Source: a virus. From it: 21,222 nt of DNA. Under the pieces are notes generated by a model, which was not told the origin of the DNA, did not search any database, and saw nothing but the letters and a program-made list of their open reading frames with translations. Each line of letters begins with the position of its first letter. Positions within the stretch are counted from its first letter, which is position 1. The translations under genes and the position numbers were made by a program. Of the stretch, positions 1,751 to 17,218 are shown piece by piece. The stretch spans positions 1 through 21,222 of IMG/VR virus record IMGVR_UViG_3300028735_000040. One strand, given 5' to 3'.

Positions 1751-2074
1751 ATGCGCATGGGTTTCCCGGCTGGGGGCCTTCCGCTTATTCTGAACGAAAC
1801 GCGCGAAGGCGCGTGGTATTTCGGCGGTTCGGTTCCCGCCGAGTTGGCTTATGAAACCGACGCGCCGCGCGGTGCGGCCCGGGATGAATTGTTCCAGGCT
1901 GCCGCTTTGTGCGGCCCGGGCTTGGCGCGTGATATCGCGGCCCGGCGCGGGTTTACGTTCACGCGCCGGACGTGGCCGACGGAGACGGAGGCTTTGGCGG
2001 CTGCGGATCAGGTGGGGGCGCGGGTGATGCAGGTTTGCCCCCGCGACAAGAAAGCGTGGCGGTCTTTGGCTTGA
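1751..2074 (+). CDS. Small protein of unknown function, first gene of plus-strand pair
   Basis: A 107-aa protein not recognised as a known family. ATG at 1751 is preferred over the longer frame from 1583 because the AAGGGAGAAAAGCA ribosome site lies directly before it and the earlier part is promoter DNA. The N-terminus has GGLPLILNETREGAWYFGG, then an Ala/Arg-rich helical stretch; no signal peptide, membrane segment or metal motif is seen. The next gene starts 20 bases after its stop with its own ribosome site, so the two form a short operon under control module copy 3. Confidence 0.75.
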   Translation: MRMGFPAGGLPLILNETREGAWYFGGSVPAELAYETDAPRGAARDELFQAAALCGPGLARDIAARRGFTFTRRTWPTETEALAAADQVGARVMQVCPRDKKAWRSLA

Positions 2075-2094
2075 AGGGAGAAAGGAACAGCACC

Positions 2095-2382
2095 ATGAGC
2101 AACGGCAACCGTATCTTCGCCATCCGCGTCCGGTATCTCGGGCCGACCAACACGCGCGGCGCTCGCATCCGCGCGGAGGTTCTTTCGCGCGAGGATTTCA
2201 AGCCCGTCACCGCGCCCTACGACTACGCGGCGCACAATCATGCCCGCGCGGCGCTGGAAGCCCTGGCGCGGGAGAACGGGCGGGATTGGACGTTCAGCAC
2301 CCACCCCGTAGGTTCCGATGGGGATCGCGGCGACATTTGGCTTGCCATGGAAGGCGATCCGCCCCTCGGGCTTGGCTGGTAA
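2095..2382 (+). CDS. Small protein with RIRAEVL motif, paralogue of the 81-aa gene at 2774-3019
   Basis: A 95-aa protein. Its central part, RYLGPTNTRGARIRAEVL followed by KPVTAPYDYA and GSDGDRGDIWLAMEG, resembles a small family often seen in phages and plasmids that carries a YLGPTNxRGxRIxA core; the function is unknown. ATG at 2095 follows AAGGAACAGCACC. The longer reading from 1972 overlaps the upstream gene and is not needed. It aligns along its length with the oppositely oriented 81-aa protein (RIRAEVL, KPxTxxYDxA, GxDxRGxxW shared). A strong hairpin follows the stop by about 15 bases. Confidence 0.8.
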   Translation: MSNGNRIFAIRVRYLGPTNTRGARIRAEVLSREDFKPVTAPYDYAAHNHARAALEALARENGRDWTFSTHPVGSDGDRGDIWLAMEGDPPLGLGW

Positions 2383-2507: not shown

Positions 2508-2777
2508 ATGCGAAGGAATGCGCATAGACCTTTGATTTCAAAAAATCGAAGATATTCCGCACCCGTTCCGATGCTTTCGGGCGGCCGTGACCCCATGGGC
2601 CGTGACGCCATGGGCCGTGACGCCAAGGCCCGTGACCCCATGGGCCAGCCCGCCGCCCCGGCCGCCGCGAGTCCGGCGGCGGCGAATCGCGCGGCGGCCG
2701 ACGGCGCGGCGGCGGGCCGGGCGGCGGCGGGCCGGGCGGCGGCGAATCGCGCGGCGCGGCCGACGGCGCGGCCCTAG
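2508..2777 (+). CDS. Possible low-complexity Ala/Arg-rich small protein
   Basis: An 89-aa reading frame. ATG at 2508 has a good ribosome site (AGGGAGA at 2494-2500). Residues 1-25 look ordinary and basic; then come four pentapeptides of type GRDxM (DNA period 15 bp, 2583-2646), then an Ala/Arg-rich tail built from repeated GCGGCGGGCCGG-type DNA. The C-terminus resembles the Ala/Pro/Arg tails of histone H1-like bacterial DNA-binding proteins by composition only. The stop TAG lies in the palindrome CTAG (2774-2777), which also provides the stop of the convergent 81-aa gene. It could equally be non-coding repeat DNA. Codon support is weak because of the repeats. Confidence 0.35.
   Translation: MRRNAHRPLISKNRRYSAPVPMLSGGRDPMGRDAMGRDAKARDPMGQPAAPAAASPAAANRAAADGAAAGRAAAGRAAANRAARPTARP
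2583..2646. repeat. 15-bp tandem repeat, four copies
   Basis: Units of the form GTGACSCCAWGGSCC recur with GTGAC at 2587, 2602, 2617 and 2632, an exact 15-bp period. Immediately to the right (about 2647-2773), GCGGCGGGCCGG-type repeats and GCGGCGAATCGCGCGGC copies extend the low-complexity block. Because the period is a multiple of three, the repeat is in frame with the possible ORF at 2508. Confidence 0.8.
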
Positions 2778-3019
2778 GCTTCGGCGGCAACCCAGTAGAG
2801 CCCGCGCTTGTCCTCGCCCGCCGGGCTTTCGCCGACAACCCAAGCCACCTTGTTCCGGCGCATGACTTCTTCGGCCGCCGCCCGGCAGTTTCTCTCGAAC
2901 CCCCAGGCATGATCATAGGTGATCGTGGCGGGCTTGTAGCCCGGCGCGAGAACCTCCGCGCGAATGCGCGAAGGCCGCGTCTCGGTGATGTCGAGAAACC
3001 GGGTCAGGACGATACGCAT
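2774..3019 (-). CDS. Small protein with RIRAEVL motif, paralogue of the 95-aa plus-strand gene
   Basis: An 81-aa protein, last gene of the long minus-strand operon. It shares RIRAEVL, KPATITYDHA, the Arg/Ala-rich helix and a GEDKRGLYW ending with the 95-aa protein at 2095-2382. The two clearly belong to one family of unknown function, though they lie on opposite strands with separate transcription. ATG at 3019 lies four bases after the stop of the 31-aa gene, with no strong ribosome site, so translation is probably coupled. Its TAG stop is part of the CTAG shared with the possible convergent ORF. Confidence 0.8.
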   Translation of the reverse strand: MRIVLTRFLDITETRPSRIRAEVLAPGYKPATITYDHAWGFERNCRAAAEEVMRRNKVAWVVGESPAGEDKRGLYWVAAEA

Positions 3020-8414: not shown

Positions 8415-8881
8415 GTGATCTTCTCCCACATGCGCCGCGCGTAGTCGGCCAACAGCAAAGCCTCCGCGCGGTTGTGGTCGCTGACGCGCTGTAGCCGGTG
8501 CTTCATGGCCGGGAACAGCATGGCCGCCTTCTCCCTGGCCGCTTCCTTGTCGGCCGGGACTCCCATGGCCTTCTTCCACGCGCTCGGCCGGGGGCGCACG
8601 ATCCGGACTTCCAGCATCAGCAGCCCGGCCAGCGCCATGCCTTCGCTCATCCCGAGAGAATGGCACACGCTGCGAGGGGTCTGCGGCATGGCCTGCGTGC
8701 GCTCAATGGCGGCACAGGCGATCATGTGCCGGAGCTCGCGCAGCATCTCAACGAACTCTTTGGCATCCACCTCGCCGCCAACGCGCGGGATATCGTCAAC
8801 CCACTGCGGCGCACCGTTCTCATCAATGACGGCGACGGCCCCGGTCTTGCCAGGGTCAACGCCGACGAACATCCACGTCAT
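8411..8881 (-). CDS. RuvC-like Holliday junction resolvase
   Basis: A 156-aa protein with the RNase H-like fold of RuvC-type endonucleases. MFVGVDPGKTGAVAVI at residues 4-19 contains the first catalytic Asp (D9), IERTQAMP has E60, and DHNRAEALLLADY at 135-147 carries the final acidic residues; the usual Asp of this last motif appears to be Glu140. These enzymes cut branched DNA before packaging. ATG at 8881 follows AAGGAGATACGGCAA and overlaps the polymerase stop by 4 bp; the reading from 8902 is less likely. Confidence 0.9.
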   Translation of the reverse strand: MTWMFVGVDPGKTGAVAVIDENGAPQWVDDIPRVGGEVDAKEFVEMLRELRHMIACAAIERTQAMPQTPRSVCHSLGMSEGMALAGLLMLEVRIVRPRPSAWKKAMGVPADKEAAREKAAMLFPAMKHRLQRVSDHNRAEALLLADYARRMWEKIT

Positions 8882-10812
8882 TTGCCGTATCTCCTTTCGC
8901 ATTCAGCTTCCGCATCCAACGGCAGCCCACCCGCCCACGCGGGAGGCGTCCGCATCACGTCTAGCAAGGTCTTGACAGCGGCAGCCCCGCTATTTTCGGG
9001 AACCTCACATACGATTTCGTCATGGACGGTGAGCACCACCGGCATGCCGTTTGCTTCCGCCGCCAGCATGGCGTCGGCCATCACGTCCCGCGCGGTCGCT
9101 TGCGTGATCCGCTCCAACAGCGCCCCGCCATAGAGCCGCTGGAAGGCCCCACGTTCCGCGCTGCTAGCCACCGCCCGGCCAGCGATCAGGTTCTGTTCCT
9201 CGGGGTTCCATTCCACCCCGTGCCAACTCAGCACCCGGCCGCTTGGCAGCCGGACCCGCATCGTGCTCCCGTCGCACCGGAACGCCACCCGCCCGGCCAG
9301 GGCTTCCACGGGCCGCCCCATGGCGCTGTAGGCGCGCATGGCCGCTTGCTCCAACTCCCGCCACGCCGCCACCACGCGCGGCCACGCGGTGCGGTAACTT
9401 TCCACATACCGCTGCGCGGTGAGGTCGTCCGGGGCGCGGCCCCCAAGGGCTTCAAGGGTCGCTTGTAACTTTCGATAGCCTAGGCCATATCCTGCGCCAA
9501 GCGTAAGGACCTTCCCGATAAACCGCTCTTCCTTGTCGGCCTTGGTGATCGGCCGCCCGAACACTTTGCTCGCCATTTCGCAATAGATGTCGGCCTTTTC
9601 CCGGTAGAGTTGCAGCGCCCTGTTTTCGCCTGCGAGCCAAAATACCAATCGCGCTTCGATTGCGCTCAGGTCCGCCCGGACCAACACCTTGCCCGGCGCG
9701 GCCCACAGCAGCCGCCGAAGCGACGATTTGGCTGCGCCAAGCAGGTCGCGGCCATAGACAGCCTTGATCCCCTCGCGCGGGAGCCGCTGGAAGTCCTCGG
9801 GGTCAACGTCCATCTCGGGGCGCGGGAGGTTCTGCGGTTGCACCAAACGCCCGGCCCAGCGGCCGGTAGCCACCGCCCCGTAGTATTGCAGCAGCCCCCG
9901 CATGCGGCCGTCCGGGCTGACGCAGGCCAGCATCGCGTCAATCTTCTTGACCGCCGATCCCGCCGCGTCGGCCCGCAACTCCAACACCCGGAGCGCCGCT
10001 TCGCTTGCGGACGGCGGCGGGGACTTGAGCACCTTCGCCACCGTCTCGGCCCGGAGGTCCGGCATGTCCGGCAGCCCGTGGCCGCGCAGCCACGCAAGCA
10101 TCTTGGCGACTTCGCTCACGCTGTTGACCACGCCGCCCGTCAGTTGCGACAACGCCTCTCGGGCCTCGGCGGCTTCGGCTTCCACCATCCGCTTGATCGC
10201 CTCGGCCGATGCCACGTCAAGGCCGATGCCGCGCGCGTTGATCTCCGCGTCCAAGAGGTAGATTCGCCGCTCCCGCTCGGGCAGCGGCGGAAGTTTCCGA
10301 TGCAGCTCGGCCTCTACCTTCACGTCTTGCAGCGCATAGGCCAGCATCTCCGGCGGCGGCTCGGCGGAACCCGTCCGCTCGTAATGCCGCCGCGCCGCTT
10401 GGATTAGCCGCTTGCCCGCCGGGTCTTTCTGCGCCTCAAGCCCCATGGCCTCCGCCACGTCGGCCAGCGCCAGCGGGTAGCCCGCGCAGGCCGCGCGCGC
10501 CATGGTGCAAGAGATGCGCCCCGGCGACAGGTCGGGCAGGTCCGGCAGATCGCGCCGTAGCACATACCGCCAGATGGCAAACTCGAAGGCGGCGTTGTGC
10601 GCCACAAGCCGCCCCTCGCGCGCGGCCGTGGCGACAAGCGCCGGGAACGGCTCGCCGGGCTGCCACACCCCTTCGGCCGCGCCGTCAGCCATCCGCCACG
10701 CCATGCACAGAACCCGCGTGGTCTTGTCTTGCGCGTAGGCGAACGCGCCGGTCTTGGCGAGATCGGCCTTGGAAACCGTCTCGAAGTCAATGACCACCTC
10801 GGAAGGCGTCAC
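8878..10812 (-). CDS. Family A DNA polymerase with DEDDy proofreading domain
   Basis: A 644-aa replicative polymerase. N-terminal 3'-5' exonuclease motifs: DFET (9-12), AHNAAFE (71-77) and YALQD (159-163). Polymerase motifs: TGRWAGRLVQPQNLPRP (about 327-343), motif A DLSAIEAR (391-398), motif B KVLTLGAGYGLGYRK (about 444-458) and motif C VHDE (616-619). It extends primers made by the prim-pol. There is no 5'-3' exonuclease domain, as usual in phages. The start is taken as GTG 10812 after CGGGAGAAAAACC; a longer frame to 10869 reads through a hairpin. It follows DUF2815 and DUF2800 genes, a neighbourhood typical of this polymerase class. Confidence 0.95.
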   Translation of the reverse strand: MTPSEVVIDFETVSKADLAKTGAFAYAQDKTTRVLCMAWRMADGAAEGVWQPGEPFPALVATAAREGRLVAHNAAFEFAIWRYVLRRDLPDLPDLSPGRISCTMARAACAGYPLALADVAEAMGLEAQKDPAGKRLIQAARRHYERTGSAEPPPEMLAYALQDVKVEAELHRKLPPLPERERRIYLLDAEINARGIGLDVASAEAIKRMVEAEAAEAREALSQLTGGVVNSVSEVAKMLAWLRGHGLPDMPDLRAETVAKVLKSPPPSASEAALRVLELRADAAGSAVKKIDAMLACVSPDGRMRGLLQYYGAVATGRWAGRLVQPQNLPRPEMDVDPEDFQRLPREGIKAVYGRDLLGAAKSSLRRLLWAAPGKVLVRADLSAIEARLVFWLAGENRALQLYREKADIYCEMASKVFGRPITKADKEERFIGKVLTLGAGYGLGYRKLQATLEALGGRAPDDLTAQRYVESYRTAWPRVVAAWRELEQAAMRAYSAMGRPVEALAGRVAFRCDGSTMRVRLPSGRVLSWHGVEWNPEEQNLIAGRAVASSAERGAFQRLYGGALLERITQATARDVMADAMLAAEANGMPVVLTVHDEIVCEVPENSGAAAVKTLLDVMRTPPAWAGGLPLDAEAECERRYGK

Positions 10813-10839
10813 GGTTTTTCTCCCGGTGGATGGGAAGGC

Positions 10840-10867
10840 GGAAGGGCCGGGTTGCCCCGGCCCTTCC
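10840..10867 (-). terminator. 12-bp hairpin between DUF2815 and polymerase genes
   Basis: GGAAGGGCCGGG (10840-10851) pairs exactly with CCCGGCCCTTCC (10856-10867) around a 4-base loop. It lies 10 bases after the DUF2815 stop and about 28 bases before the polymerase GTG. No T-run follows, so attenuation, 3' protection of the upstream message or RNase processing are all possible; partial termination would lower polymerase relative to the ssDNA-binding protein. Confidence 0.6.
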
Positions 10868-10876
10868 AAGCAGGCG

Positions 10877-11434
10877 TCAGAAGGCGACTTCCTCGCCGTC
10901 GTCCTGGATCAGATCGCCGAACAGCGCCTTGGCGCTGACGTTCCGGAACACGGCCGGAGTGCCGGGGTCCACCACCAGCACCGCTTGAAGCCGCAGAGCG
11001 AGCATCTTCTTCCGGGCCAGCGCGGAGTCGTAGATGAACGGCTTCACCAGCGCGCGAATGACGCTACCGGAATACGCGCCGCCCGACTGGATCGGACGGC
11101 CCCGGCTGTCGAAAACCGGCGGCTGGAACTTGGTCTTTGCCTTGAACACCAGATGCGTCGGGTCAATCCCCTGATACTTGTCGCCGACTGCCGGGAAGGA
11201 CTCCGTGATGAGCCTCGCCATCACCCGCGCATCCACGCCAGCGATATTCGCGAACACGGAAGTGAACTTCTCAAACTCATCCGTGTCGGGGTCAACGGCG
11301 AACTGAACCCCATACTTGTTGTCCCCGACCACCCTACCATCCTTGAGGGTGCGCGGGGCGTCCGGCTCCCACAGATGTTCGTAGATGATCACACCGCGAG
11401 GCGTTGGGACGTTGGCGTTCTTACCGTCACTCAT
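10877..11434 (-). CDS. DUF2815 family protein, likely ssDNA-binding
   Basis: A 185-aa protein. The GVIIYEHLWEPDAPRTLKDG opening (residues 14-33), GDNKYGVQFAVDPDTDEF near 37-54 and YSGSVIRALVKPF near 125-137 resemble the DUF2815 family, which replaces SSB or T7 gp2.5 in many phages that use a PolA-type polymerase and a DUF2800 nuclease. The tail is acidic (LIQDDGEEVAF), as in many ssDNA-binding proteins, where the acidic tip recruits partners. ATG at 11434 follows AAGGAGCAACAGGACC. Family assignment is good; ssDNA binding is family inference. Confidence 0.85.
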   Translation of the reverse strand: MSDGKNANVPTPRGVIIYEHLWEPDAPRTLKDGRVVGDNKYGVQFAVDPDTDEFEKFTSVFANIAGVDARVMARLITESFPAVGDKYQGIDPTHLVFKAKTKFQPPVFDSRGRPIQSGGAYSGSVIRALVKPFIYDSALARKKMLALRLQAVLVVDPGTPAVFRNVSAKALFGDLIQDDGEEVAF

Positions 11435-11466: not shown

Positions 11467-12597
11467 TCAGTCTGCGGCGAGATAGAGGTGCGAGGGCTTG
11501 CGCTGCGCCAGTTTCCCGACGGCCTCCTTCACTCCCGCCGCGTCGCCAAACCTATCGAGCACTTGCGTCGGCGTCAAGAGGGAAAGCGACGTAAAATCGC
11601 TCTCCGGGATGAAGGCGGAAAGCGCGGAGATAACCTCCGCATCGCTCGCCGTCCAAGCGAGCGCCCCGGCGCGGCTCTTGGTCCGCAGCCCCGGCACTTC
11701 CACCCCGGACTGAACCATGCGGAGGCCGACGCGCTCGGCCGCCGCGATCCAATCCGAGACGCGCTTCTTGAGGCGCACCGCCCGCGCGATCATCTCGGCG
11801 TCGGCTTGCTCAGGGGTCACAGTTTCACTCATGTTCGCGATCTCCTCGAACTCGGCGCGGCGGGCCGGGCAGGCCAGAAGCGCCGGGCAGTATTGGCAAT
11901 GATCCCCAGTCACCGGCGGGTCTTTCTCGGCCCGTTCCAGCCGCCGGACAACCTCCCGCAGAAACGCGGTGACGAAGGCCGCGTCCTCTTTCACCTCATC
12001 CCACCCGTCGGGCGACGCCTCGGGGTGGCGCGGCTGGCAGATCGCAAGCCGCACGGTGTGGATCGGGTAGTTGTGCAAGCGATTGCGGAGCAACCCGGCG
12101 GCGTAAAGCAGCAACTGCTGATTGCTCTCGGCCGACACCAGATAGCCCGCGCCGTGTTTGTAATCCACGACGTGAAGCACGGTGCCGTCATCCGTGAGCG
12201 CCCAGAAGTCAACGGTCCCCCAGATGCCAGGTTCTTCCGAGATGACCACTCGGGTTTCGACCCCCCAGGCCAGCGCCCGCCCCGCCAAGTCGCGCAGCCG
12301 TTCCGCCGCCTTGCAGATGGCGCTGCGGCTGTCATCATTGGCGATCAGGTCGAACCCTTCGGCCGCGTCCTCCCGCTGCGCGCGGGCAGCGGCGAAGGCC
12401 GCGTCATAGTCGGCCTCCGGCCGCCGGAGCATCTCTTCCAGAACCGCCATGGCGGCGGTCCCGGAGAGCGCGTAGGGCGACGCGCTTTCGTTTTCGATCC
12501 CCCGTTGCCGCGCGGCTTCCGTCAGGCGGATGGAAGCCGGGCAGGAAAGCCACCGCTTCGCGGCGCTCGGGCTATAGACTGCATGCGCCTTGGTCAT
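11467..12597 (-). CDS. DUF2800 PD-(D/E)XK nuclease with Fe-S-type cysteines
   Basis: A 376-aa protein of the DUF2800/RecB-like nuclease group. The active-site core is GTVDFWAL (127-134), then VVDYKHGAG (143-151) and QQLLLYA (160-166), giving the D-x(n)-D-x-K pattern. Four cysteines (C19, C234, C237, C243) match the split cluster of AddB/Cas4-type enzymes that hold a [4Fe-4S] centre. It probably resects DNA ends for recombination-dependent replication together with DUF2815. Start ATG 12597 overlaps the polyproline gene stop by 4 bp (ATGA). Confidence 0.9.
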   Translation of the reverse strand: MTKAHAVYSPSAAKRWLSCPASIRLTEAARQRGIENESASPYALSGTAAMAVLEEMLRRPEADYDAAFAAARAQREDAAEGFDLIANDDSRSAICKAAERLRDLAGRALAWGVETRVVISEEPGIWGTVDFWALTDDGTVLHVVDYKHGAGYLVSAESNQQLLLYAAGLLRNRLHNYPIHTVRLAICQPRHPEASPDGWDEVKEDAAFVTAFLREVVRRLERAEKDPPVTGDHCQYCPALLACPARRAEFEEIANMSETVTPEQADAEMIARAVRLKKRVSDWIAAAERVGLRMVQSGVEVPGLRTKSRAGALAWTASDAEVISALSAFIPESDFTSLSLLTPTQVLDRFGDAAGVKEAVGKLAQRKPSHLYLAAD

Positions 12598-13109
12598 GCC
12601 ACCTCAACCCCCATCACCTGCGCAAGTTCAGGAAGCAGAGCCTCCGGCGCGCTTTGCAGCCCGCGCGCGCCCCTGTCATGCAAGAACTCTTGCATGATCG
12701 GGATCAGGTGCGGATTGGCGACAAGAGCCGCCTTGAGCCGGACCCGCAGATCGGCCGCCGGGATGGTGGCCGGGGCCGGGGCCGCCGGGGCCGCCGGGGC
12801 CGCCGGGGCCGCCGGGGCCGCCGGGGCCGCCGGGGGCGGCGGGGGCGGCGGGGGCGGCGGGGGCGGCGGGGGCGGCGGGGGCGGCGGGGGTGCCGCCGGG
12901 GCCGGGCGGCTGGAAGCCCCATGCCCAAGCAGGACCTCCTTTGCCAGCCGCCGCACAAGCATCGCCTGCGCGTCGGCGATGGCTTCCTCCGGGGTCTGCC
13001 CCGCCGGAACGGGACCGGCCACCTCGGCCGTCCCTTCAACGTGCTGGTAGTCTCCGAGATTGTAGCGCCGCGTAACACTGGCGCGGAACGTCACGATGGG
13101 TTCGCTCAT
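12594..13109 (-). CDS. Protein with 20 consecutive prolines linking two small domains
   Basis: A 171-aa protein. Residues 6-60 (VTFRASVTRRYNLGDYQHVE and a helical tail) resemble small phage proteins with an RYNLGxYxHVE core. Residues 74-93 are 20 prolines without interruption, followed by six AAP triplets and APATIP. The C-terminal 50 residues are helical (LRVRLKAALVANPHLIPIMQ and more). The strong ribosome site AAGGAGG precedes ATG 13109. Such a proline run would normally stall ribosomes without EF-P and should form a stiff polyproline II rod. Genes for DUF2800 and SNF2-type helicase flank it; function unknown. Confidence 0.85.
   Translation of the reverse strand: MSEPIVTFRASVTRRYNLGDYQHVEGTAEVAGPVPAGQTPEEAIADAQAMLVRRLAKEVLLGHGASSRPAPAAPPPPPPPPPPPPPPPPPPPPAAPAAPAAPAAPAAPAAPAPATIPAADLRVRLKAALVANPHLIPIMQEFLHDRGARGLQSAPEALLPELAQVMGVEVA
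12778..12898. repeat. 9-bp G-rich tandem repeat with G-quadruplex potential
   Basis: The plus strand carries GGGGCCGCC repeated from about 12778 to 12831, then GGGGGCGGC repeated so that seven G5 runs start every 9 bases at 12832, 12841, 12850, 12859, 12868, 12877 and 12886. Loops of 4 bases between five-G runs fit the standard quadruplex pattern. On the minus strand this encodes the polyproline and AAP stretch of the gene at 12594-13109. Replication slippage would be expected to vary its length. Confidence 0.9.
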
Positions 13110-13145
13110 GGTGTTCGGGCCTCCTTTCCGCCCGCGTGTGAGGTT

Positions 13146-14804
13146 CTATCGAATGAACCCGGCGCTGTCAAGCGCGCAGTGTGCCACCCGCGCTTTTTCC
13201 ACCGCCCGGCGGATGATGCGGGCGGAGATGCTCCCTTCGGCCACCAGGAACCGGGCCAGCACCGGGTTCACCTGCCCCACCCGGTGCAAGCGGTCAATCG
13301 CCTGTTCGTTCTCGGCCGGAACCCAGGACGGTTCCAGGATGACCAGGGAGCACGCCGCCCGCTGCAAGCCGTCAATCCCGGTCCCGGCGGCCTGGATGTT
13401 CCCGATGAACAGGCGGCACTCCGGGTTTTCCACGAAAGCCTTGACGGCCGCCTCGCGCTGCGACGCGCTATGCTGGCCGATGACGATCTCAGGCTTGTGG
13501 TGCGCGAACATGTCCGCCAGTTTCGCCACCACGTCGAGATGCCAGCAGAATACCACGATCTTGCCGTCGGATTCGATCATGTCCTCGATCACGTCCCGCG
13601 CGGCCTCGGCCATCTCCAAGCCCATCTCGCGCCGGATCGCGGCAACGGCGGTCTGTTGCTCGAAGGTCAGGGTGTCGAGATGGTCAACATCAATGTCCAA
13701 AAGGCGCTCTTGTTGCACAAGGACCTCAAGTTGACGGCTGCCCACATCCAGCACGTCGTAGATTTTCGCGGGCATCTGTGGCGCGGCGGCGGTCTTGTCC
13801 CGCCGGACCATGAAGCCGCAACGCAACCGGGCCTGCAACTCTTCCAGCCGCGCCACGCTCTCGGAGCGAGCAAAAGCAACCGTGCCGTCTTTCTTCGTGA
13901 CCTGAACGATCTCATACTTGTTGAACGCTTCCTTGAACGCATCGAATGACATGAAATCTATGCTCTCCCAATCCAGCGCCCGCGCCAGCCCGTAGATTTC
14001 CAGCGGCCGGTTGGGGAGCGGCGTGCCGGTCAAGGCGATCACCCGGCGCGCGCGGCCCAGGATGCCGGGGTGCCGCCCGGCCGCCCAGGACCCGAGAATG
14101 TGCTTGGTCCGGGCGGACGAATGGTTGCGCAGGTAGTGCGCCTCATCCAGGATCACCGCATCCCACTCCGCCGCCCCGAGGGCCGCGCTAACCGTAGGCT
14201 GCTTGGCGCGGTCGTAAGAGACGATCACCGTCCGCGCTGTCGGGTGAACGTGCGGCCCGCTGACGGTAGCCACGCCATTCGTGGCGCACATGCGCAGCGG
14301 CCGAAGCCACCGCATGGCGGCATTCCGCCACTGCCGGGTAATAGCGGCCGGGCATACCACCAAGATGCGCTGCGCCTCGGTTGCGTTGCACACCGCCAGC
14401 GCCTGAACCGTTTTCCCGAGGCCCATCGGATCGGCGATCAGCGCATGCGGGCGGCGCAGCGCATACCGCACCCCGGCCGCCTGGAACGGCATCAAGTGCT
14501 CCCCGTCCGGTAGCCATAGCGGATCGCCGGGGTCATCCAGGGCGAAGGAAGCGCGGTATTCCGCCAGCAACGGCTCAAGCCGCAGTTGCGCGCTTTCGTC
14601 GGCGAACTCCGCCCAGGGCAGCGCGGCGAACGGCAGATACCCAGGCTTGCCGTGCGCCGCCGTAACCCATTCCAATCCGCCGCGTTGGACCTGTAGCCAA
14701 CAGCGCGCCAAACTCGGCAGGTCCTGCCGCTTGGCGGCTTCGGGGCTTAGCGTGAGACGGAAAGCGGCTTGATCGGCGTCAAACGTCAGGCTTGCCAGCG
14801 GCAC
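13146..14804 (-). CDS. SNF2/Rad54-type SF2 helicase
   Basis: A 552-aa protein. Motif I DPMGLGKT (125-132), motif II DEAH (220-223), motif III LTGTP (258-262), motif V QAAGTGIDGL and motif VI QAIDRLHRVGQ (starting near 501) match Snf2-family DNA translocases common in phages near replication genes. The first 100 residues are an accessory domain. It probably remodels DNA-protein complexes or aids recombination. GTG at 14804 is used, with weak GGGGG upstream; the holin-like gene ends at 14831, leaving little room for another start. The 3' end is followed after 36 bases by the polyproline gene. Confidence 0.92.
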   Translation of the reverse strand: MPLASLTFDADQAAFRLTLSPEAAKRQDLPSLARCWLQVQRGGLEWVTAAHGKPGYLPFAALPWAEFADESAQLRLEPLLAEYRASFALDDPGDPLWLPDGEHLMPFQAAGVRYALRRPHALIADPMGLGKTVQALAVCNATEAQRILVVCPAAITRQWRNAAMRWLRPLRMCATNGVATVSGPHVHPTARTVIVSYDRAKQPTVSAALGAAEWDAVILDEAHYLRNHSSARTKHILGSWAAGRHPGILGRARRVIALTGTPLPNRPLEIYGLARALDWESIDFMSFDAFKEAFNKYEIVQVTKKDGTVAFARSESVARLEELQARLRCGFMVRRDKTAAAPQMPAKIYDVLDVGSRQLEVLVQQERLLDIDVDHLDTLTFEQQTAVAAIRREMGLEMAEAARDVIEDMIESDGKIVVFCWHLDVVAKLADMFAHHKPEIVIGQHSASQREAAVKAFVENPECRLFIGNIQAAGTGIDGLQRAACSLVILEPSWVPAENEQAIDRLHRVGQVNPVLARFLVAEGSISARIIRRAVEKARVAHCALDSAGFIR

Positions 14805-15421: not shown

Positions 15422-17218
15422 TTACGGCTCCCTCCGGAGACATATCGCATTGCCGATGTAGTTATACAGGTTCATAGGCCCGGCGGCTACCAACTTTTTC
15501 CCCAGAAACCGGAGACGCCAGCCGGTGTTAGGAACCGTGATCCCGTCAAACACCGCCGATCCCCCGCCTTGCCAGAAAAACGTAGTGAACAAAGAGGTCG
15601 TGATACTCCGCCCGTAGGCTATATCGTTCGCCTGAATCTCGTTCAGAGAGGCGTCAAGCAACTGAACTCTCAGTTGATAATCAATCTGCGTGCCAGCCGC
15701 ACCGGTCTGCCCGCCAGCATACCAAGCATTCACCAATATTCTGAAAACGTTGTCGGCGAGCATCATATCAAAGAAAACAGTGTAAGAGGTCGTAAGATCA
15801 AAAACCCCGCTCCACCCGTTTGAGTGAACAGAGGACAGGTTCGGGGGCGCGTTGGTCATGACGAACGCGCGCGTGGCCGCGTGGTTGGCAGCGGTTGGCG
15901 GCCCCGACAGCGTAAGCAGGCCGGTCATCGTGTCGCCTGCTTTCAGGACGTAGGGACCGGCGGCGATGGTGGAATCCACGTAGCCCTTGGTAGCCAAATG
16001 GTTCGCTGCGGTCGGGGAGGCCGACGGCCCCACGATGGGCAACGGGCTGTCGAAAGTGATCTGGCCGTTGGCGCGGGCCACCTGGAACGGCGTGTTGATG
16101 TAAGAACCGGTGTCAGAATAGCGGTCTAGCCGCAGATCAGAACCCGCGTTACCGCCGCTTTCCGTGGCCGAATTGGCATAGAATGCCCACCGGGGATTCG
16201 CGCCGGTCTGATACACAATGGCGCGGTTGGAGGGCGAGGCGCTGCGTAGAATGACCCGCGCATCCGTGGCGTTGATCTCAAGGTTGCCGGTCATCGTGTC
16301 GCCGGTCTTGGCGACTCGGGTGCCAACCTCGGTATCCACGTAGCCCTTGGTGGCGGCATGGTTCGTGGCCGTGGGGGCACCCGAGAGCGTGAGCAACCCG
16401 GTCATCGTGTCGCCAGTCTTGGCGACTCGGGTGCCAACCTCGGTATCCACATACGCCTTCGTGGCCGCATGATTCGCGGCCGTCGGCGCACCCGAGAGCG
16501 TAAGCAGGCCGGTCATCGTGTCGCCAGCCTTGGCAACCCGGGTGCCGACTTCCGTGTCAACATACCCCTTGGTGGCCGCATGCAGCGTGGCCGTAGGCGC
16601 TCCCGAAAGCGTGAGCAACCCGGTCATCGTGTCGCCCGCCTTGGCAACCGCGCCGATGCTCACAAGCCCCGCCGCCGCCGTGGTCTGCGACAGGAACGAA
16701 ACCGCCCAGGCCGGGGCGACAATCACAGTGTCCGCCAGCAGCGCGGCCTCCGGGTCGCCAGTCGTGGCGTTGAAGTAAAGCACCCGGCCCTTGCGGTTTT
16801 CCACCGCCGGAAGCGTGTTGGTCGAAAAGCCCGCATCACCAAGCGGCAGAATAATGGCGCGGTTCTGAACAACGTCGTTGATCTGCTGCAAACCCTTCAC
16901 GACCTCATCGAATCGCTTCTCAGTCACGACAGCCGGGAACGGCGCGTTGGTCTTGTAGATGTCCGGCTGTAGCAGATCAACAACCCGGAACAGGATGACC
17001 CTTCGGCCGTTGGGCGGGGCGGTGGTGAACGTCACCCCGCCGCCCCCGAAGGTGTAATCAGTCCCCAGGACTTGCAGCGTGAGCACGCCGGTCGTGGGGT
17101 TGAACAGGTAAACTTTCAGGTTCGTGGAAGTCGCGCCGTCAATAGGGGCGTAGGAAAAGAAAGTCGCCACGCCGTTAGCGGTATGGACAACCCGCGCGAC
17201 ATCCGAGGAAACCGCCAT
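15422..17218 (-). CDS. T7-type tail fibre with repeated shaft and distinct tip
   Basis: A 598-aa protein. Residues 1-130 match the T7 tail fibre N-terminal domain (virion attachment), including VVHTANGVATFFSYA and the RFDEVVKGLQQINDVVQNRA segment. Residues 191-311 are a shaft of 37-residue repeats with the core GDTMTGLLTLSG and AATKGYVD, three full copies and a partial one. A fifth copy lies near residues 436-460, after an inserted domain. The C-terminal part (about 465-598) has no repeats and is AT-richer in DNA, as for a replaceable receptor-binding tip. ATG 17218 follows AAGGAAAA, 6 bases after the ejection-protein stop. Host receptor unknown. Confidence 0.92.
   Translation of the reverse strand: MAVSSDVARVVHTANGVATFFSYAPIDGATSTNLKVYLFNPTTGVLTLQVLGTDYTFGGGGVTFTTAPPNGRRVILFRVVDLLQPDIYKTNAPFPAVVTEKRFDEVVKGLQQINDVVQNRAIILPLGDAGFSTNTLPAVENRKGRVLYFNATTGDPEAALLADTVIVAPAWAVSFLSQTTAAAGLVSIGAVAKAGDTMTGLLTLSGAPTATLHAATKGYVDTEVGTRVAKAGDTMTGLLTLSGAPTAANHAATKAYVDTEVGTRVAKTGDTMTGLLTLSGAPTATNHAATKGYVDTEVGTRVAKTGDTMTGNLEINATDARVILRSASPSNRAIVYQTGANPRWAFYANSATESGGNAGSDLRLDRYSDTGSYINTPFQVARANGQITFDSPLPIVGPSASPTAANHLATKGYVDSTIAAGPYVLKAGDTMTGLLTLSGPPTAANHAATRAFVMTNAPPNLSSVHSNGWSGVFDLTTSYTVFFDMMLADNVFRILVNAWYAGGQTGAAGTQIDYQLRVQLLDASLNEIQANDIAYGRSITTSLFTTFFWQGGGSAVFDGITVPNTGWRLRFLGKKLVAAGPMNLYNYIGNAICLRREP
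16286..16648 (-). repeat. 111-bp repeats coding the fibre shaft
   Basis: The block TCATCGTGTCGCC recurs at 16291, 16402, 16513 and 16624, exactly 111 bp apart, with a related copy at 15925 beyond the inserted domain. Each 111-bp unit encodes 37 residues ending in VDTEVGTR. Differences among copies are mostly silent, so the repeats are under protein-level selection or recently homogenised. Confidence 0.85.

Follow-up and report, generated by a model that had tools for sequence, protein, structure and literature searches.

The twenty consecutive prolines encoded in the replication block of an IMG/VR virus record are probably the product of a 9-bp tandem expansion, which lengthened an Ala/Pro-rich, length-tolerant tether between the two domains of a small accessory protein in the duf2800-gp2.5-polA module. 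In the five phages compared, selection keeps both domains, together with a spacer rich in A/P and about 30–60 aa long, not the twenty prolines. Three lines of evidence bear on this reading: the codon pattern of the tract; the predicted architecture of the protein; and the corresponding genes of four related phages, each with a different linker at the same place.

The tract and its DNA

The window (the whole stretch of DNA analysed, a 21,222-base virus record with a G+C content of 65.6%) contains a 171-aa minus-strand gene, in which residues 74–93 form the longest proline run, exactly 20 as assembled (Table 1). An earlier note on this DNA had described the twenty prolines, six AAP triplets, and seven G5 runs at 9-bp spacing, placing them at 12778–12898; measurement of the sequence confirmed each element, and the span was correct to within a few bases. 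On the template (plus) strand the seven G5 runs start at 12832, 12841, 12850, 12859, 12868, 12877 and 12886, and TRF delimits a 9-bp array at 12775–12904 (14.1 copies).

Table 1. Features of the 171-aa gene and its surroundings, in window coordinates.
Feature	Position	Strand	Evidence
171-aa gene holding the tract	12594–13109	minus	ORF; conserved ribosome site and 4-bp DUF2800 overlap; domains under purifying selection against four relatives
Ribosome-binding site AAAGGAGG, 10 nt before ATG	13120–13127	minus	identical motif in L006, L007, L008
N-terminal domain, aa 1–60: predicted strands 7–18 and 21–33, helix 40–61	12930–13109	minus	AlphaFold2, block pLDDT 72–87; 83–90% identity in four relatives
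Ala/Pro linker, aa 61–117, no predicted secondary structure	12759–12929	minus	block pLDDT 48–69; A+P 84%; relatives 31–43 aa
20-proline run, (CCC CCG CCG)x6 + CCC CCG	12831–12890	minus	sequence read and measured
Six AAP triplets, each GCG GCC CCG, directly after the prolines	12777–12830	minus	measured
Array of G runs on the template strand, with four G4-type motifs that do not overlap; the runs include seven of G5, spaced 9 bp apart	12772–12906	plus	measured
C-terminal domain, aa 118–171: predicted helices 118–131, 133–145, 156–166	12597–12758	minus	AlphaFold2; 81–91% identity in four relatives
ATGA overlap with DUF2800 start	12594–12597	minus	ATGA or GTGA overlap in 4/4 relatives
DUF2800, PD-(D/E)XK nuclease	11467–12597	minus	PF10926 6.8e-45; phrog_69
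Gp2.5-like / Enc34 ssDNA-binding protein (DUF2815)	10877–11434	minus	phrog_112; PF10991
Family A DNA polymerase	8878–10869	minus	Pfam and PHROG matches
SNF2-type helicase, directly upstream of the 171-aa gene	13146–14804	minus	PF00176 6e-28; phrog_62

Proline accounts for 5.9% of the 5,549 residues in the 14 other minus-strand frames of the window, where the next-longest proline run is 6. Within the tract, the proline codons follow an exact three-codon period (17 of 17 lag-3 matches), an order reached by only 5 of 200,000 shuffles of the same 20 codons. Given this background and this periodicity, the tract is not a chance occurrence; so rarely matched a codon order shows that a 9-bp unit was copied in tandem, not that twenty prolines were chosen separately. 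The copying probably occurred through replication slippage or unequal recombination. Because the unit comprises three codons, expansion would keep the reading frame and only lengthen the tether.

A wrong copy number, in which the repeat exists but the contig misstates its length through an assembly or sequencing artefact, is unlikely. The array of about 130 bp is near short-read length, and the window is an IMG/VR virus record; against this, the reading frame is unbroken and the sequence on either side intact, a relative in a separate contig carries an exact 12-bp array of its own at the corresponding site, and further contigs also contain long runs of proline.

These further runs come from an IMG/VR scan for 20 successive CCN codons, which found at least 120 stretches. 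Among the 120 listed, proline falls in the longest open frame in 49 and another frame is longer in 71; the 49 include up to 62 prolines in a row, and many are flanked on both sides by ordinary protein sequence. In contigs classed as viral, long proline runs are uncommon, not exceptional. Four such contigs, possibly cellular DNA (L041, L061, L118 and L124), encode 22–37 prolines just before a segment that presumably resembles an OmpA-type C-terminal domain.

The repeat was also described as G-quadruplex-prone. Its four G4-type motifs are present, a count above the 0.94 predicted under free codon choice, where it is attained in 5 of 5,000 simulations. Under a tandem-copy model, however, in which one unit is drawn and then copied, 772 of 5,000 simulations reach four, so the enrichment was rejected as a signal. 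Nor is the property conserved: the four relatives (L006 to L009) have 1, 0, 0 and 1 motifs, and the mRNA carries the C-rich strand. That the G-rich template strand forms a functional G-quadruplex acting on replication or transcription is therefore extremely improbable; the G runs are what Ala/Pro codons repeated in tandem produce in a genome rich in G+C.

Other repeats are present in the window. A 111-bp tandem repeat (3.2 copies) lies at 16287–16645, in a 598-aa minus-strand gene (15422–17218), and encodes repeated AGDTMTGLLTLSGAPTA..ATK.YVDTEVGTRV units, presumably of the tail-fibre type. Positions 2583–2772 are repeat-rich, with 15-bp units and low-complexity coding in several frames, possibly a second slippage-prone site. 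Two small ORFs, 1972–2382 (plus strand) and 2774–3019 (minus strand), share a similar stretch (IRAEVL...KP.T..YD...) and may, as judged by eye, be diverged copies. At the left contig end (1–194), tandem repeats with units of 28 and 104 bp may explain where the assembly stops.

The gene and its protein

The setting in a replication operon, proposed earlier, is borne out by Pfam and PHROG matches of the neighbouring genes, which serve replication and recombination; the strong ribosome site and the ATGA coupling to DUF2800 are likewise both present. Besides the genes of Table 1, the minus-strand block includes a Holliday-junction resolvase, an exonuclease-family gene, a primase-polymerase and an AAA ATPase (Pfam/PHROG). 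PMC8093625 describes a duf2800-gp2.5-polA module in Firmicutes phages, and states that it recurs in Gram-negative phages; the block in the window is this module.

The 171-aa protein itself matches nothing in Pfam or PHROGs at E<=0.001, and a literature search found no published study of the gene, a weak negative. AlphaFold2, run on a 5-row alignment (mean pLDDT 72, pTM 0.42), predicts folded ends and no structure at residues 62–117. By this prediction, the tract is the central portion of a linker that joins two small domains. Searches with the predicted fold turned up nothing significant: the best viral match had E 0.013, and no PDB match fell below E 1. The best VIA-align score was Z = 4.2, for the N-terminal part, and no function was drawn from fold comparisons. 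By sequence, a PDB search (query A1) likewise gave no match below E 1, and the N-terminal domain matched phrog_5189 weakly (E 0.04–0.36, three proteins).

Four relatives with conserved ends and replaced linkers

Four relatives (L006 to L009) were found in IMG/VR through the neighbouring SSB gene, where their identity to the window is 96, 87, 85 and 78%. All four were found again with alignments of the 171-aa protein and of DUF2800, and three of them also with an SNF2 alignment. The comparison therefore covers five sequences, the four relatives coming from three metagenomes according to their IMG/VR names. The whole window protein, used as query, retrieved no relative from IMG/VR or the phage collection, an outcome probably due to the dominance of the linker in that query. 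A genome collection yielded no relative of the 171-aa protein and only distant SNF2 helicases, and the phage collection yielded none of the L007 protein. A fifth DUF2800 match (L023) was set aside: it is distant (32%), and the ORFs upstream of it are unlike the 171-aa protein.

In all four relatives the gene precedes DUF2800 with a 4-bp overlap, and in L006, L007 and L008 it follows SNF2; the L009 record starts partway through the gene and covers neither the ribosome site nor SNF2. Both end domains are under purifying selection: dN/dS is 0.06–0.16 for the N-terminal domain (10 pairs) and 0.03–0.28 for the C-terminal domain (nine of 10 pairs; dS was saturated in one).

The linkers are another matter. 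In the order window, L006, L007, L008, L009, they measure 57, 43, 31, 38 and 40 aa; their A+P share is 84, 93, 69, 69 and 63%; and their longest proline run is 20, 1, 1, 2 and 2. The motif PPP is absent from all four relatives, so the proline run was rejected as the conserved part of the protein. L006 is the nearest relative, with SNF2, DUF2800 and SSB proteins 96, 93 and 96% identical to those of the window. Its nucleotide sequence matches the window at 163 of 177 positions in the N-terminal part and 146 of 162 in the C-terminal part, versus 81 of 129 in the linker, with 42 gapped columns. The L006 linker is built from an exact 12-bp unit encoding (AP)n, never with two adjacent prolines. The other three linkers are irregularly A/P-rich: a weak, worn 9-bp periodicity can be seen in L007, and L008 and L009 have no clear repeat. 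Constrained domains thus flank a linker variable in both length and sequence, and different repeats have arisen at one site from phage to phage, with the domains on either side held constant.

These linkers also bear on a regulatory role for the tract, in which the prolines would stall ribosomes and so lower the output of the 171-aa protein and also, by way of the gene overlap, that of DUF2800. Ribosomes stall at runs of at least three prolines, and EF-P relieves the stall (PMC4176338); polyproline pauses have been proposed to regulate copy number, as in CadC (PMC5811046); the overlap with DUF2800, moreover, is real. A regulatory stall should, however, retain its prolines. In having at least three prolines in a row the window resembles EF-P-dependent stall motifs such as that of CadC; it differs in that its run is not conserved among its relatives, which keep the overlap nonetheless. 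The tract also begins only at residue 74, past the N-terminal domain. The earlier suggestion that the tract tunes DUF2800 expression thus lacks comparative support, with longest proline runs of one or two in the relatives and the overlap in five of five sequences, and such a tuning role is improbable. A cost or effect in the lineage of the window alone may nevertheless exist.

A probable tether lengthened by repeat copying

The preferred reading remains that of a repeat-grown interdomain tether. The possibility of a rigid linker, which the earlier note had offered beside expression tuning, is supported by the position of the tract between conserved domains predicted to be folded, and by the variable Ala/Pro-rich linker at the same place in all four relatives. 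Polyproline and Ala-Pro segments are extended and non-helical, so such a linker would keep the two small domains apart, and it may serve to space two binding domains. Going by gene order, candidate partners of the two domains are the neighbouring DUF2800 nuclease and Gp2.5-like protein.

This location is one where such runs are tolerated, as polyproline motifs are depleted in structural domains of E. coli and not in its interdomain linkers (PMC5811046). PMC6821194 reports that alanine, glycine and proline are the residues most enriched in phage low-complexity regions, whose mean length is 33 aa. The window linker resembles other A/P-rich low-complexity interdomain linkers of bacteria and phages in lying between folded domains, in its A/P richness, in being built from repeats, and in its variable length; it differs in a proline run unusually long for its phage.

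Counting against the tether, the A+P content stays high throughout (63–93%), and composition may therefore be selected more than spacing. The same richness in all five linkers would fit a ligand for a proline-binding partner, but the five share no peptide motif beyond it, and this role for the proline-rich segment is very improbable.

Further phages with a small protein before DUF2800

The 171-aa protein and its four relatives are encoded directly upstream of DUF2800, as are phrog_408-like proteins. Most of the small proteins in this position in other phages with the module have a short N-terminal module, a low-complexity middle and a small C-terminal part (for example, those of Vibrio LP.1, Coprococcus NatCom_29765, BPP-1 (bbp35) and Mae-Yong1326-1), and several match phrog_408, phrog_3709 or phrog_18562. 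Proteins of these three families and of phrog_3127 resemble the window protein in their place upstream of DUF2800, often overlapping it, in the mostly low-complexity middle, and in a short C-terminal part of similar size. The window protein differs from them in the predicted beta-beta-alpha fold of its N-terminal domain, and in a linker of A/P only where theirs is K/E/P/A. Microcystis phage Mae-Yong1326-1 has the same order as the window: SNF2, small protein, RecB-like exonuclease, SSB and PolA (PolA 38% identical). Its small protein (212 aa), unlike that of the window, lacks a long proline run, and its linker is acidic and Ala-rich.

Ten phage records, six taken for the similarity of their DUF2800 and four for that of their PolA, were inspected by eye, and nine have a candidate small protein upstream of a DUF2800-type gene. 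A profile was built from such proteins, and two of the nine served as seeds for it. The profile matches four of the seven others at E<=0.01 with Z=1000 (the MW202898 ORF, BPP-1 bbp35, Klebsiella gp70 and Mae-Yong) and does not match eiAU gp46, MW202496 or Ruegeria V16_81 at that threshold. The Klebsiella candidate is at the opposite end of its record, and the MW202496 candidate has no long linker. By annotation only, the XapPhi3 stretch has no gene named DUF2800 or exonuclease. Eight further loci were selected for matching the seeds and are uninformative on frequency.

Two observations concern annotation. In an environmental podovirus (MW202898.1), an unannotated 155-aa ORF (L162:3324–3791) lies between the SNF2 and DUF2800-type genes, overlapping the latter, and matches the C-domain profile of upstream-of-DUF2800 proteins (6.6e-7 at Z=1000). 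In Streptococcus phages Javan422 and Javan105, small proteins (L153:1357–1653 and L154:1360–1653) precede a gene in the DUF2800 position, and the two loci carry the annotation 'putative rRNA biogenesis protein rrp5', a name without support in the present analysis.

Whether the C-terminal domain of the window protein belongs with these proteins was examined by profile. A plain HMM search of the window protein against the upstream-of-DUF2800 profile gave E 36 at Z=1000, and phrog_408 matched neither the two ends of the window protein nor three relatives at E<=10. Comparison of C-domain profiles (hhalign) gave a score of 19.6, with a probability of only 21% and E 0.001 for one comparison; the best of 300 column shuffles scored 15.7. 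With the first 10 sequences the score was 16.3, versus 13.8 in 200 shuffles, and 13.7 with query and template swapped. These scores are no more than suggestive of common ancestry of the C-terminal domains.

A broader proposal is tentative: that the first gene of the module in duf2800-gp2.5-polA phages may encode a kind of tether protein not recognised before. In such proteins the N-terminal module would be exchangeable and the low-complexity linker hypervariable (A/P, K/E/P/A or acidic), and the small helical domains at the C-terminus would be related to one another and dock on the nuclease or the annealing protein. Should this be true, the 20-proline run of the window would be an extreme version of the class linker.

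As a proline tract, then, this one is nothing unusual: repeat copying has lengthened a spacer. It brings to view an accessory gene, as yet uncharacterised, that heads a replication module common in phages. Moreover, phages about 93–96% identical in neighbouring proteins carry unrelated linkers, a clean natural comparison for asking whether twenty prolines carry any cost in translation and whether the length of the tether matters.
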